Positions 25,001 through 49,050 of a stretch of DNA of 64,000 bases are shown here, piece after piece. The notes under the pieces are model-generated. The model was given only the letters and a program-made list of their open reading frames with translations. It had not been told where the DNA came from and searched no databases. Origin of the DNA: Rhizophlyctis rosea. Taxonomy: Eukaryota > Chytridiomycota > Chytridiomycetes > Rhizophlyctidales > Rhizophlyctidaceae. Position 1 is the stretch's first letter, and each line of letters begins with the position of its first letter. Made by a program: the position numbers and the translations under genes. The stretch spans positions 1-64,000 of the forward strand of contig JADGJC010000163.1 of the NCBI GenBank assembly GCA_027596075.1. The letters are read 5' to 3'.

Positions 25001-25420
25001 CCGCAAAATGGATACGGTAGGCGGACCACAGCAATTGTTTTTGGGGCGAATTGGGAGCCTGAGAAGACTCCCATGTTGCGAAGCGACGCGCCTTTCTCCG
25101 CAAGGAGTGGGTAAACTTTCAAGCTGTAAAGGGTACATGAGGCCCAACGGCGCATCCTGGCAACCCACTCACCATTCACTGCAACTGGACACCAGTCGAA
25201 GATCTCCGTGTCGTCATCCACTAATGACTTTCCTCCTGCCCAAATGCCCATGGAAACCTTTGACATCCGTTGGTTGGATAAAGGAACCGAGACTGTGCAA
25301 CACAGATGATCGATATAAGCTGCTGGCTACTTTGAGATTGATTGAATGCATCGTACCTGTAAATACGTCCTATTCCCTGTTCCAGCGTGTATCACTTGCC
25401 CGACCACACTGACTCGTGTC
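22027..25420. other. No recognised gene; open stretches of uncertain meaning
   Basis: Minus-strand stretches at 23766-24242 (158 codons) and 24670-25266 (198 codons) are longer than most chance frames and have protein-like composition. I find no family motif, and neighbouring frames are broken. They could be relics like those further right whose parent is no longer readable. No terminal inverted repeats or transposase motifs were seen. Confidence 0.35.
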
Positions 25421-25429
25421 CACCATCCC

Positions 25430-27383
25430 CAGGTCAGTAACTCTTCCCGCCTGGCATCATGTCCTCTTGCACAATCAAAATATCATCGTCACCTTTACAA
25501 CCAACCACCCCAGGCAGACACATCGTCCTCCGTAAACAAGATAATGACGTCCTTGTCACCATCGTATAGATGGGTAAAATCACGCTTTGGCCAACGTTCG
25601 ATGATGGTGAATGGAGGAGGATGATTCGCGATGATGGTGCCATATGTCGAGGACTAGGGGGGCTTGACGATGATGATGAAGCGGGCAGCGCTGAGTTCAG
25701 TTGGTGGATTTACCCCCTGTAAGGGATTTGGACAGGGCGATTTGAGAGGGTAGAACTATGGATAGATTGAGGTCCCTCGTTGTGTGTTCGAGTGTGAAAG
25801 TCAGTGGGGGTTCGTAAGGGGGATGAAGTCTTTGGGGGTGGTAGAGATCTTGTCGGAGTTCAGCTGGGCAAACCAGTCGTAGAAGGTGACGGTGAGGTGG
25901 CACATCAGGTGTTGGGCGTATGAAGAGGGTGGCGCTCGGAGAGTCCTGAGGTAGTGGTGGTGAGGTGGGAAGAAGTGGTACAGGATGCTACGGTTGTGCT
26001 CGCTACCCTCAAGGTCAGGATGACGGCGACCAAGATGGTGACCAAGACACCGAGGACTTTCCTGCTGGAGGTCAGTGTGTCCGTGCTGAGGCGACGGCAG
26101 TCGTTGTTGGACTTGGTGATCTGCTCCAGGGGGCAGAGTGTTTAGATTAATACCACTTTCCAGTCATGCATGAAACAAGTTACACAAATCTCTTTTAAGT
26201 AGTTACTTCGTCTTGGCCTTCAACTACGATATTGAGCATATAAGGCTCAACAAACACAAACACTGCAAAAGGCCCACACTTACAGATGACCAATGTTCCA
26301 CACTACACTACCCAACAACGCTACAGACAAGATACCCCAATCTCCGCCCCGCCGCAATCCTCCCTCCCACCGCTCTGCAACTTCAAAATCGACACCGGGC
26401 CCCAACTCCTCAGCTGCATCACCATCCCCACCCCATAATTCTCCACCAAATCATCAACTCACCACCGCCCTCTCATACGCAAAATCATCAATATATTCAC
26501 ACAATACTCATCATCACCCCTCCTCCTCCTCTCCCACCCCGTGCATCCCACCCACCCACAAAAGTCATTCCTACCATACCACGCAAACCGCGCAACGTAC
26601 TACACAGCGCATTCGTACCCCTCAGCTTTCTCAACACAAAGGATTTTCTAAGTGGACGAGAACACCGTGTTGCGCAGCCTGAACCGCCCATTCATCAGGT
26701 ACTGGTATTCCTGAGTTGAACTAACGACGGCTTTCAACGATTCCGAAACGAGAAGGAGGAGAAGGACGTTCGTGCACGTACAACGGCACAAGTCTGGGAA
26801 GAGAACGACTTAGACGATGTTGGTGACCTTTGTATTGTTTGGGTGTCCGGTTAGGTAGACGAAGGTGGAAACGGTTAGGGGTAGGAGGAGGTGGAGGAGG
26901 GCGTTGTAGGATTCAAGAAAGAGGACGGATTCGACGCAGAATTCTAAAAACAGATAAGACGTCAGCCAACTGCATTACGCCCGTGAAGTCTTTCATTTAG
27001 GAATTGTTTTTTATGTGATGCCAGAGGTACGCGCTCACCGCGGCATTTTTATCCCACCCCAGCCCGCAGCGTAATCTATCGACCACAACTGAAGCTAGCA
27101 AGCTGACCCAACTAAAAGCCTCCTCACCATCCCCTTCCACTAACCCCAAAACTAGACCCCGCAAAAAGTCAAAACCTAACCATGCTCGCCCTTCCCAAAC
27201 TCCACCGCTTCTGCCCACCGGTTCCAAAACACCAACAAACAAGACGTAACGTAGAGCGTACCGCCGTCCGCGGAGGTTGTGGTGGTAAGAGTGTGGAATC
27301 ATGTATAGGAGCGCCCTCTGGAGGGAAGGAAACACGTTATTAGCCATAATGGAGGGAAGGCAAAAAAAACTCCAAACCAACAT
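25430..27383 (-). pseudogene. Decayed multi-exon gene with membrane segments, family uncertain
   Basis: Minus-strand fragments between splice-like signals include a hydrophobic helix (VLGVLVTILVAVILTLRVA, about 26000-26060) preceded by CPLEQITKSNND, and near 26940 a short piece FCVESVLFLESYNAL followed by another hydrophobic segment. The latter resembles the start of an RGS domain (consensus F-x-x-E-N-x-x-F-W), but the match is short. Stops and frame changes separate the pieces. A decayed membrane receptor-like gene is possible; the identity is a guess. Confidence 0.25.
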
Positions 27384-46129: not shown

Positions 46130-47826
46130 ATGATACCGATGCGCCATCGCCTCGTGCGGCGTCAGCCGCTCCTGAGGGTCATACCGCAGAAGCTTGCCAA
46201 GGAAATCCAACGCCTCCGGTGAGATCTACTCTTGAACTTCTTGCGTTACGAACTTTTGCCACGGTTTTCGGGGGTACCTGTTTTTGTTAAGGATGGCGTA
46301 TGATGAGGGACTGCTTGTGGGTGAGGGAGTTTGTTTTGTGGTGGGCAGAACCCCCCGCGCGCTTGAATTTGCTGCTTTGAACCACCCTCCGTCATGCATG
46401 TGTGACGTCCATCATTCCGCCATCCTCCCTTTCTCCACTCCTTCTCTCTTCTATCCCAAAACTCTTCATTCTTTCATCCCCATCCCCCAATCTCGACACC
46501 CAACCCGCTGCCTCACCCACAACCTCCACTCCATAGCATCCCATTCCATCCACCAACTTTCCCCGCTTCGACTCCACCTCCACGTAATACTGGTCCGCAT
46601 CCCCTTTTCTCTCCATCTAAACTCCTACCAAAGCGCGAAAGAATGTCTCTGCTCACCTTCCCAAAATCTCATCAAACTGCGAATCCAACTCAATATCATA
46701 CTCGTCGAAATAAGTGACCAACTACTCCGTTCCCTAACACCCTTAGCAATGTTCACTGGCTGATCGTCGTTGTCGTGCCCGTGGAGGAAGGGCTCCTTAC
46801 GGAAGATCTACAACATCATCACAACAAGATGAGGGTGAGTTCAGAGAGCGTCCGAGTTCTCTCAATCACGCTGACGGAAGCCGTCACGCTTCCCACTCTC
46901 CAGAGAAAAAGGACAAAAACTCCTCCAAAAATCCTGGACACCCACCATACTTGCAAACATACACCCCAAATTCCACAATCCAACGAATACTCGTACTGTT
47001 GGAAATCCACAAACAGCTCCGGCTTGAAATATATCGATGCGACCCGGACGTCGTATTCTGTCCCCGGGTGGTAGAACTCCGCCAGACCCCAGTCGATCAA
47101 TCGTAGTTGCCGTTTTTCGTGGTTGACATTACGTGCTACATTCCATTTGAACGACATGAGATATGCTACGGCAGACGGAGAAGTTACATTGATCCTTACA
47201 TGGGCTTTGACATGTCGGTGCATGATTCCTCTTGAATGGGAGAAGACAAAGGTATGAGTACGTTCCGATTGAAGCGTCAGTCAACGGTTTTTTCCCAGAA
47301 TCGGCTCATGACTGCTTCCGCGAGCACATAGGTTACCTTCAACAGCTCGTGAATGCAATATCGTACGTCGTGGTCGGTCAGGTTGGGATATAGAACTTTG
47401 AGATCGGTGTTGTCCACGTATTTGAATATCAAGGCTGGTGTTTTTGACTGTTGTGTCTCGATTTGTTAGCGTACATGCTTCTCATCATTCTGACATGTCC
47501 TCGTCCACCTCCACCTCCATCCGACAACCGTCCTCCCTTCCACCCTCCCCACCCACTACAGATATGGTGTGTGCGCAGTGCGCACTTGTGTCAGCCGCGC
47601 TGACGCTCACTCAATCATTATGACTGCGAGTTGAATGTGCGCTGCGTGCACTTGTGACAGCTTAGCTGCCCTACTGATCTGCTTCGCAGATTGCAACCTC
47701 GCTCCACCCAACACTCCACCCACGCCCTCCAACCCACTCCGCCCACCCATCACAGCACCCGATCATTACCTGAGGATCTCTAACAACATCCAACAACTGA
47801 TGTGAGATAGCGTCCGTTTCGTTCCA
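46130..47826 (-). pseudogene. Casein kinase 2 catalytic subunit (CK2-alpha) relic
   Basis: Nearly the whole kinase is readable in order on the minus strand: QLLDVVRDPQ (47826-47770); SKTPALIFKYVDNTDLKVLY and DVRYCIHELLK (47447-47337); GIMHRHVKAH (to 47200); NHEKRQLRLIDWGLAEFYHP and YDVRVASIYFK (from 47135); RKEPFLHGHDNDDQ (about 46810-46770); YFDEYDIELDSQFDEILGR (46740-46650); ISPEALDFLGKLLRYDPQER (46240-46130). These match CK2-alpha, including its Asp-Trp-Gly in place of Asp-Phe-Gly. The catalytic HRD is HRH. One-base losses lie before NHEK and in SLDMW. A Gly is missing after YFK, and Arg of VASRY is Ile. Splice sites are mostly intact, so this is a decayed genomic copy, not a processed one. 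Confidence 0.88.
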
Positions 47827-49050
47827 CTTGAAACTGTTCGAGTGGCTGGTCCTCCTCAAGAACCTGACAGACGATATTGTTGCAATGCATTGCGTAGAAA
47901 CCATGGACCGGCAATCGATGGTATTGAACGCAAGCATATGACGATTGCGATATCTAGATGACGAAGATGGTAGAACGAGAATGCCGGAGTCAGCGTGCGT
48001 TCCACCTTTATATACTTGTGGCAGGTCGAAAAACGCACATGACATCACGCCCATTCACAACTTACCGCTGCACCTCGAATGCCTCGCACTACCTGAGTCT
48101 GATTCCGAGCCGGACGAACTGTCGCTGTCGCTGCTGCTGGAAGAGTGCTTGCCAAGACCCCTTGTGCCCGACAAACTCGCACCTGCTATGAAACATAGTC
48201 AGTTTCCCACGTTCTCAAACCATGCCGTTTCCTGACAACTACCACGCAACAGTCAGACATGAAAGGGCGAAGAACAAAACACCAACCCGGCTTCTCATCC
48301 TTGACCGGCTTCGTCGGTTTCTGGGTCACGGGAGGGCCTCGGGCCTGCTCTTGACGAACTGGTCAAGCCTGTGCGCCGTTCTCTTGTCCAACAGGCTTAT
48401 GTATAAGTGGTGCCTGTGAAAACTTCATGCGCGTTTGTAAAGAGTCAACCGAAGTTATCGTAAGGTGACTCCTTACTTTGAGCGGCGTAGTGAAACATCG
48501 AGCTGTGAGCAGGGTTATGAACGCGGTGGGGCGGGTCAAGTTTCCCACCATATGATAGGAACAAGGTGGTACACTGGTTAGTTCCCGGGTAACTATGTAA
48601 GACGGTGTGAAGGCAGGCACTGCTACCATACCTAATAGACTGCTGAGACCATGGGAAAGGTGAGCTGCTGGAAAGGCAAAATAGAGGCAAAGGAAGTGTG
48701 ATGGGAAAGAGGGAAAGGGAGGTTCTTGACCAGGGTGGGCAACAGTTTGACAGGTTGCACACCATGCGGCGTTGTGCCTCCCCCAACCATTCCCAGCTTC
48801 TCGGGCTGCACGTGTCATGACTAGGACTAGGCATGCACATAATACACAACAACCCCCCGACACCTTCACAAATATGATGTAATCTCACACAACGCGTTAT
48901 GCTTTTTGCGTTTTCAGCTTCGAATATGAACAAGTTTGACTCATTGCAACAATATATTAAATTACACATTAAAACCGCTTTACATTGTGCCTCCGACTGT
49001 GTATATACATATGGTGCCTACAATATGGTAATGAAAAACTCGAGAAAAAG
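47827..49050. other. Relic-like pieces, no gene
   Basis: Minus strand 48190-48090 gives a Ser/Asp-rich piece (SSSSDSDSSSGSESDSG), and 48340-48290 a Lys/Pro-rich one (QKPTKPVKDEKPG) followed by a GT. They may be exons of another decayed gene. The rest shows nothing. Confidence 0.3.

Follow-up and report, generated by a model that had tools for sequence, protein, structure and literature searches.

An apparent patchwork of gene-fragment copies, nearly all facing one way, in the chytrid fungus Rhizophlyctis rosea

How do the remains of so many different genes come to lie side by side, and nearly all on one strand, in a single fungal contig? The question is posed by the first 64 kb of contig JADGJC010000163.1 of Rhizophlyctis rosea (assembly GCA_027596075.1), a stretch of 64,000 nucleotides that is referred to here as the window, in which an earlier note had seen a row of at least eight decayed housekeeping genes, nearly all on the minus strand. 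Comparison of the window, which opens contig C72, with its own assembly (44.1 Mb in 634 contigs, to which the "C" numbers belong, "L" numbers denoting fetched partner loci) confirms that all eight are present, each with a partner elsewhere in the assembly that bears an open reading frame (ORF). The eight families are thus real, but what is left of them are pieces of genes within a patchwork to which 14 more donors contribute. Judged by sequence comparison, the region is a patchwork of gene-fragment copies from more than 20 genes, nearly all in the same direction, and not a row of decayed duplicates. The structure is firm and the mechanism is argued with moderate confidence, whereas the causes offered below for the shared orientation are tentative.

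The matching DNA falls into two dense clusters, a left one at 25157-34286 and a right one at 42203-47990, found by a search of the window DNA against its own genome followed by local alignment with the partner loci. Instead of one paralogous block, the search returned short matches to many scattered contigs, with E-values down to 0, such that chance is excluded for the relic matches. The pieces measure from 35 bp to 1.4 kb, mostly with 73-89% identity to the donor, and those assigned make up 5451 of the 5788 bp in the right cluster and 5951 of the 9130 bp in the left; separate searches gave 4 matches in 48.3-64 kb and 11 in 9.5-25.5 kb. In total 22 donor genes on 20 contigs were recognised, and several donors can be represented within about 1 kb of the window; only the best candidates in the genome search were scored, and the uncovered stretches may hold further donors. 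Pfam or PDB names are available for 16 of the 22, namely an RRM gene, transportin-1, a cullin, Cdc20/Cdh1, a LAG1-type factor, a kinesin, NAC-beta, a GDP-mannose transporter, a RING/IBR gene (weak, below cut-off), a WD40 gene, eL13, SMC2, a Rad51-type gene, an RPE65-type gene, a protein kinase and a DUF7918 gene, with six known by open frames only. All eight families first noticed are among the 22, although for Sec31, CK2 and kinesin-6, labels that stem from the earlier note, it was the wider families (WD40, Pkinase and Kinesin) that were tested. Wherever donor frames were inspected the match is to only part of the donor gene, and the open frames around the match suggest that the donors are intact elsewhere. 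Among the candidates scored there was no colinear paralogous block, and no genomic place matched across two adjoining window pieces of different donors; no second copy of the whole mosaic was seen.

Fundamental to the problem is the direction of the pieces, which was established for each donor by combining the strand of the donor gene with the strand of the match. Sense lies on the minus strand of the window in 22 of 22 orientable donors (two-sided chance 4.8e-7), and in 16 of 16 when only the family-named donors are counted (two-sided chance 3.1e-5). The sole plus-strand piece among those oriented is a 93-bp stretch of NAC-beta that runs backwards at 30819-30911, and the inversion reported earlier is therefore real. 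Matches to which no strand could be assigned were left out of the count, those in the window being to C112 (35.1-35.9 kb) and C253 (37.35 kb). At four further mosaic loci, found on C52, C535, C627 and C146, the matches left out were to C34 and C398 on C52, and to C268, C170 and the C74/C11 family on C146. Here too oriented neighbours agree, two on C52, three on C535 and four on C627, and C146 holds two agreeing pieces in one group and three in another, the groups lying about 1.8 kb apart and facing opposite directions (at all four loci the strands come from ORFs and from names given by eye).

The pieces of the left cluster, followed by those of the right, are these.

25157-25681, minus strand: unnamed gene (389-amino-acid ORF, C197), 76% identity; orientation from the ORF only.
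26305-26537, minus strand: unnamed C117 gene (452-amino-acid ORF), outer part of an A-B-A sandwich, 67% identity; orientation from the ORF only.
26592-26822, minus strand: unnamed gene of several copies (C179, C482), flanked by the C117 pieces; orientation from the ORF only.
26832-26950, minus strand: second C117 piece, colinear with that at 26305-26537; the intervening 643 bp of the donor are absent.
27560-28053, minus strand: gene with an RRM domain (C542, with another, broken, copy on C627), lacking about 410 bp of internal donor sequence; Pfam RRM_1 in the donor ORF.
28212-28410, minus strand: transportin-1 gene (C611), the donor being transportin-1 against PDB.
28587-29003, minus strand: cullin gene (C602, at 218 kb), Pfam Cullin; the same donor region is in the C52 and C535 mosaics.
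29251-29475, minus strand: Cdc20/Cdh1-type WD40 gene (C272), outer sandwich part; Pfam WD40_CDC20-Fz above cut-off.
29474-29854, minus strand: LAG1/CSL-type gene (C102) inside Cdc20/Cdh1, 88% identity; Pfam LAG1-DNAbind, two donor ORFs.
29854-29956, minus strand: second Cdc20/Cdh1 piece (C272); between the two, 330 bp of an uninterrupted donor ORF are absent.
29946-30350, minus strand: kinesin gene (C281), outer sandwich part; Pfam Kinesin in a donor ORF at the same locus.
30350-30817, minus strand: NAC-beta (C58); BTF3 in PDB.
30819-30911, plus strand: NAC-beta (C58), inverted, with 14 donor bp in common with the sense piece.
31503-32234, minus strand: GDP-mannose transporter (VRG4-like, C602, at 83 kb), two introns kept; GDP-mannose transporter in PDB.
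32546-32644, minus strand: coiled-coil gene (C386; kinesin-14-like by eye only); orientation from the ORF only.
32655-33043, minus strand: second kinesin piece (C281), 370 bp of donor missing relative to 29946-30350.
33099-33627, minus strand: RING/IBR ubiquitin-ligase-like gene (C197, at 17 kb); weak Pfam Sina_RING and IBR_1, below cut-off.
33869-34286, minus strand: unnamed C632 gene, permuted (donor 4988-4614, then 5031-4989, of L013); orientation from the ORF only.
35149-35949, unoriented and beyond the left cluster: weak similarity (68%), in two matches, to sequence that precedes an ORF on C112; not counted as a donor.
42203-42993, minus strand: WD40 gene (C429; Sec31 in the earlier note), 84%; WD40 families in the donor.
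43041-43210, minus strand: eL13 gene (C9), outer sandwich part; Pfam Ribosomal_L13e.
43242-44095, minus strand: SMC2-type gene (C24) between the eL13 pieces; the window frame 43226-43702 matches SMC/SMC2 chains in PDB, where the donor ORF itself has no match.
44130-44298, minus strand: 5' part of, or sequence upstream of, a Rad51-type gene (C5), likewise enclosed by eL13; the donor ORF that adjoins the match carries Pfam Rad51.
44297-44404, minus strand: second eL13 piece (C9); the 90 bp that separate it from the first in the donor, by eye the end of an exon and the greater part of an intron, are absent.
44411-45836, minus strand: unnamed C1 gene, the same reading frame being recognisable in window and donor.
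45885-46128, minus strand: RPE65/carotenoid-oxygenase-type gene (C277), 70 bp of donor missing inside; Pfam RPE65.
46112-47800, minus strand: protein-kinase gene (C149; CK2-alpha in the earlier note), with 71 bp of other sequence at 47695-47765; Pfam Pkinase.
47800-47990, minus strand: DUF7918 gene (C108), joined to the kinase piece; Pfam DUF7918.

The remainder of the window has features of its own. To the left of the mosaic are a dispersed repeat of about 118 bp at 23086-23203, with copies on C324, C223, C105, C11 and C113, and, immediately beside the left cluster, a stretch at 24651-24904 that is 72% like a C299 locus and whose frames resemble, by eye, the end of a Ty3/gypsy pol with a chromodomain. 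Between the clusters lies a RanGAP-like open frame (38569-39633), part of which (38885-39395) has a 66% identical partner on C244; among the matches listed, two chytrid proteins head its relatives, and the protein relatives share 33-55%. Further right there is a direct duplication (49051-49463 and 55217-55638, 70% identical over 437 columns) and one further piece (58770-59418) that is 80% like a C43 locus with a 303-codon ORF, by which its sense is minus. A 61-bp cluster of small CTTCG-loop palindromes at 47634-47694 also occurs in the intron of the C149 kinase gene and on C53, C246 and C604. No tRNA genes were found in the window, L022, L016 or L017 (ARAGORN, bacterial code), and Rfam gave no match in the window at gathering scores.

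What does the internal structure of the patchwork say about how the pieces were copied? Three of its sandwiches are evident from the order of the donors, in that the two C117 pieces enclose the C179 piece, the two kinesin pieces enclose those of NAC-beta, VRG4 and the coiled-coil gene, and the two eL13 pieces enclose the SMC2-type and Rad51-type pieces. In the fourth the Cdc20/Cdh1 donor is one 316-codon open frame, of which 330 bp have been replaced by 381 bp of the LAG1-type gene with junction overlaps of 2 bp and 1 bp, and a continuous ORF is thus interrupted in the window by a break inside an exon; L010 and L019, the loci relevant to this sandwich, show no likeness in blastn. The outer sandwich pieces are colinear in the donor. 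The gaps in the eL13 and RPE65 donors overlap introns, and their ends are, by eye, not at splice sites.

Introns themselves have been carried along. Both introns of the VRG4-like piece are kept with their splice signals, as are two in a C6 piece and part of one in the cullin piece (in three copies), and the RING gene probably keeps more, on the basis of donor frames and continuous alignment; no precise intron loss was seen in the VRG4, C6, cullin or RING pieces. The kept introns in VRG4 and the C6 piece rule out processed pseudogenes, as had been recognised before, and favour copying at the level of DNA. Nor can the mosaic be an assembly chimera, since pieces of at least 90 bp differ by about 11-34% from their donors and a misjoin would be near-identical.

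The junctions are tight. Neighbouring pieces abut within 5 bp at 17 of the 23 junctions examined, including 9 of 13 in the window, and at 4 of the 17 abutting junctions at least 4 bp are in common, against 1.6% expected (P 1.3e-4); seven have at least 2 bp in common, against 15.6% expected. No poly-A tract is visible in the junction sequences. At the inner inserts on C627 and C535 target bases have been lost and not duplicated (two inserts, by eye).

The pieces have also decayed. Between relic and donor, codon positions 1, 2 and 3 and noncoding positions differ by 0.128, 0.111, 0.175 and 0.165, respectively, in 16 segments whose frame could be used, from 15 of the 22 donors. Position 3 shows an excess (P 1e-5), as it should if constraint acts on the donor and not on the relic. 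Replacement positions have diverged almost as far as silent ones, which suggests that decay has been near-neutral. Over 10078 aligned bases in 24 window segments there are 243 indels, of which 218 are not a multiple of three, and the earlier view of the relics as unconstrained is in keeping with both sets of data. In the same segments the substitution spectrum is near-symmetric (C>T 0.105, G>A 0.089; A>G 0.082, T>C 0.086) and CpA shows no excess, by which repeat-induced mutation, one of the causes first proposed, is ruled out. Divergence is unequal among the 15 donors (chi-square P 0.0016; P 0.012 for the nine named donors), which fits the entry of pieces stepwise and at different times.

The window is not alone in this organisation. 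On C52 a cullin region leads, within a single open frame, into a piece of exportin type (CRM1 repeat), and on C535 a C6 piece lies inside a cullin piece, with no duplicated target around it (by eye), before a 93%-identical C59 piece. C627 and C146 (loci L023 and L028) were chosen as likely broken copies and both held joined pieces of several donors: on C627 a piece of the C24 gene is interrupted by an RRM piece, with a 5-bp overlap on one side, alongside C79 and C67 pieces, and on C146 C632 stands beside C6, with C400, C52 and C624 in a row. Apart from the cullin piece, blastn found no sequence common to at least three of the five mosaics. Open frames run through two junctions, one from a piece that looks TPR-like by eye into cullin (L017, 5121-5579) and the other from cullin into the CRM1 repeat (L016, 4774-5373). 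A dispersed family of about 0.7-0.9 kb, in which no coding frame was recognised, occurs at L016 1540-2437 and L017 8280-9159 and on C16, C190, C184 and C392. Direct repeats of the long terminal repeat type around the C535 mosaic were considered and set aside, the copies being 63-67% alike and one of them 81% like a C16 copy, which points to a dispersed family. Introner-like short repeats were likewise rejected, for a 70-bp repeat at L026 is tRNA-gene-like by eye, the L023 repeat is a CAG run and window 47634-47694 consists of palindromes. Two donor loci served as controls. At L026 the C72 and C412 matches represent copies of the transportin gene at that locus, and the tRNA-like repeat accounts for most of the rest; there remain two matches to C410 (68% and 78%) and one of 50 bp to C257. 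L009 was not clean: besides several families present in many copies, it matched C32, C235, C376, C602 and further contigs, and by eye none of the three partners examined had a coding-looking frame.

The best explanation for these structures, with a probability of roughly one half, is that copied gene DNA was captured at breaks, step by step and with the help of microhomology. Where DNA that no longer had a use was broken, the break would have been closed with copies from other, probably transcribed, genes, the copies being made from DNA together with its introns and at least 22 dispersed genes serving as donors. Each such step would have used 0-7 shared bases and cost the recipient site between 1 and about 640 bp. 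Break repair with templated insertions, which is known from yeast and tumour cells, accounts for the lack of convincing ends, for the absence of target duplication at the two inner inserts, and for the sandwiches, the foldback and the microhomology, and the inverted NAC-beta and permuted C632 pieces look like repair scars. As templated insertion requires, the donors are retained in the genome and the two inner inserts are without target duplication. Templated insertions at double-strand breaks were reportedly described by Yu et al. in Nature in 2018. The likeness extends to detail, for in the portions of the yeast and human accounts available such insertions are copy-and-paste events in which several genomic pieces may be joined, with short microhomology and short local inversions included, whereas here there are 22 donors, pieces of up to 1.4 kb, a probable accumulation over time and one transcriptional direction (PMC11724301, PMC10802722).

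A number of observations weigh against capture at breaks. In the same portions of those accounts the insertions hold two to four fragments and the inversions are very short (PMC11724301, PMC10802722). The nine abutting junctions of the window all overlap by 2 bp or less, the four long overlaps, and with them the excess of microhomology, being all at other loci. The C52 and C535 mosaics have sequence in common beyond the cullin match and are probably related copies, so some pieces appear to have been carried onward as a unit, in the manner of a mobile element. The richness of the L009 control in multi-copy matches leaves the base rate of mosaics in the genome open, and apparent differences in age between fragments may partly reflect unequal constraint on the donors. 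Above all, break capture alone predicts random orientation, yet 22 of 22 donors agree (P 5e-7). Their shared sense could come from copying at genes that are transcribed and partly single-stranded, or antisense pieces of essential genes could be weeded out by selection, with RNA interference as one possible route. That this genome has a process, without counterpart in the literature searched, by which unspliced stretches of transcribed genes are time and again copied and added in sense to growing mosaics, with the direction set by transcription, is a speculative proposal that we would rather doubt than assert.

To our knowledge, large gene-fragment mosaics are known above all from plant transposons, and the main rival is a gene-capturing transposon of the Helitron, Pack-MULE or Pack-CACTA type, the mosaics being decayed elements that gained fragments over successive transpositions. 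This is possible, if distinctly less probable than capture at breaks. In the part of the maize work available, Helitrons hold mosaics in which fragments from different loci are joined and were gained stepwise (PMC3288121), and one cullin region is indeed found here in three mosaics with different neighbours, two of which, C52 and C535, share flanking sequence as related elements would. Unlike the maize mosaics, however, those described here show no convincing element ends, no Rep domain was found (which is not conclusive), no repeated whole mosaic was seen, and the host is an early-branching fungus. A genome search with Helitron_like_N (PF14214) gave 0 candidates, by which absence is not shown, no control having been detected either. 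Beyond the cullin piece nothing is common to three or more mosaics in blastn (the Helitron 5' TC and 3' hairpin and CTRR motifs were not scanned), and the lack of any place, among those scored, that spans adjoining pieces of different donors tells in the same direction. Inverted repeats in window 20-56.5 kb amount to six weak pairs of 24-37 nt with 73-80% complementarity (shorter ends were not sought), one of which, 25420/36144, straddles the left cluster; neither these nor a 19-nt, 89% pair in L017 (4136/5628) are convincing. Pack-TYPE transposons also capture coding DNA, but what defines them, in the extract available, is the presence of terminal inverted repeats together with target duplications (PMC8903248), of which none is convincing here, the inner inserts of C627 and C535 lacking target duplications (the outer borders are not definable). 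Helitrons of Pleurotus, moreover, are reported, at least in the part of that study available, not to be prone to capture host gene fragments (PMC4289320).

Could RNA have been the template? A reverse transcriptase hopping between unspliced pre-mRNAs, with insertion of the chimeric cDNA, would explain both the sense co-orientation and the A-B-A returns without duplication, and the Ty3/gypsy pol-chromodomain-like fragment (by eye) at 24651-24904 adjoins the left cluster. It is nonetheless unlikely, for introns are kept, of which spliced RNA should lack at least some, and any introns lying in sense would be stripped out as cycles were repeated; nor is a poly-A tract visible in the junction sequences. 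A single catastrophic event, in which chromoanasynthesis-like template switching made each cluster at once, would suit the dense run of joined pieces with its foldback inversion, but is improbable as well, given the unequal divergence of the fragments and the colinear outer sandwich pieces, which fit later insertion into an existing piece. The causes first proposed, that the region is a duplicate (segmental or whole-genome) in decay or part of a non-recombining chromosome of the sex or B type, would provide many gene relics with introns and ORF-bearing partners elsewhere, but are very improbable, since the scatter of the donors over 20 contigs, without a colinear block or ordered match to one region, rules out duplication of one region, fragments end inside exons where checked, and a special chromosome fits poorly with mosaics on four other contigs and an open RanGAP-like frame between the clusters.

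Within the terms used, the literature searched held no recognised description of the phenomenon. Mosaics of this kind are here found in a 44 Mb genome, without convincing element ends, and gene predictors may call chimeric proteins within them. Their strict sense orientation is predicted neither by random repair nor by the copying of spliced RNA, which makes it possible to test what part transcription, or else selection against antisense, plays in exon shuffling. If the direction of the pieces was indeed set in this way, the mosaics would be fossil records of transcription, or of a constraint by which antisense pieces are removed.

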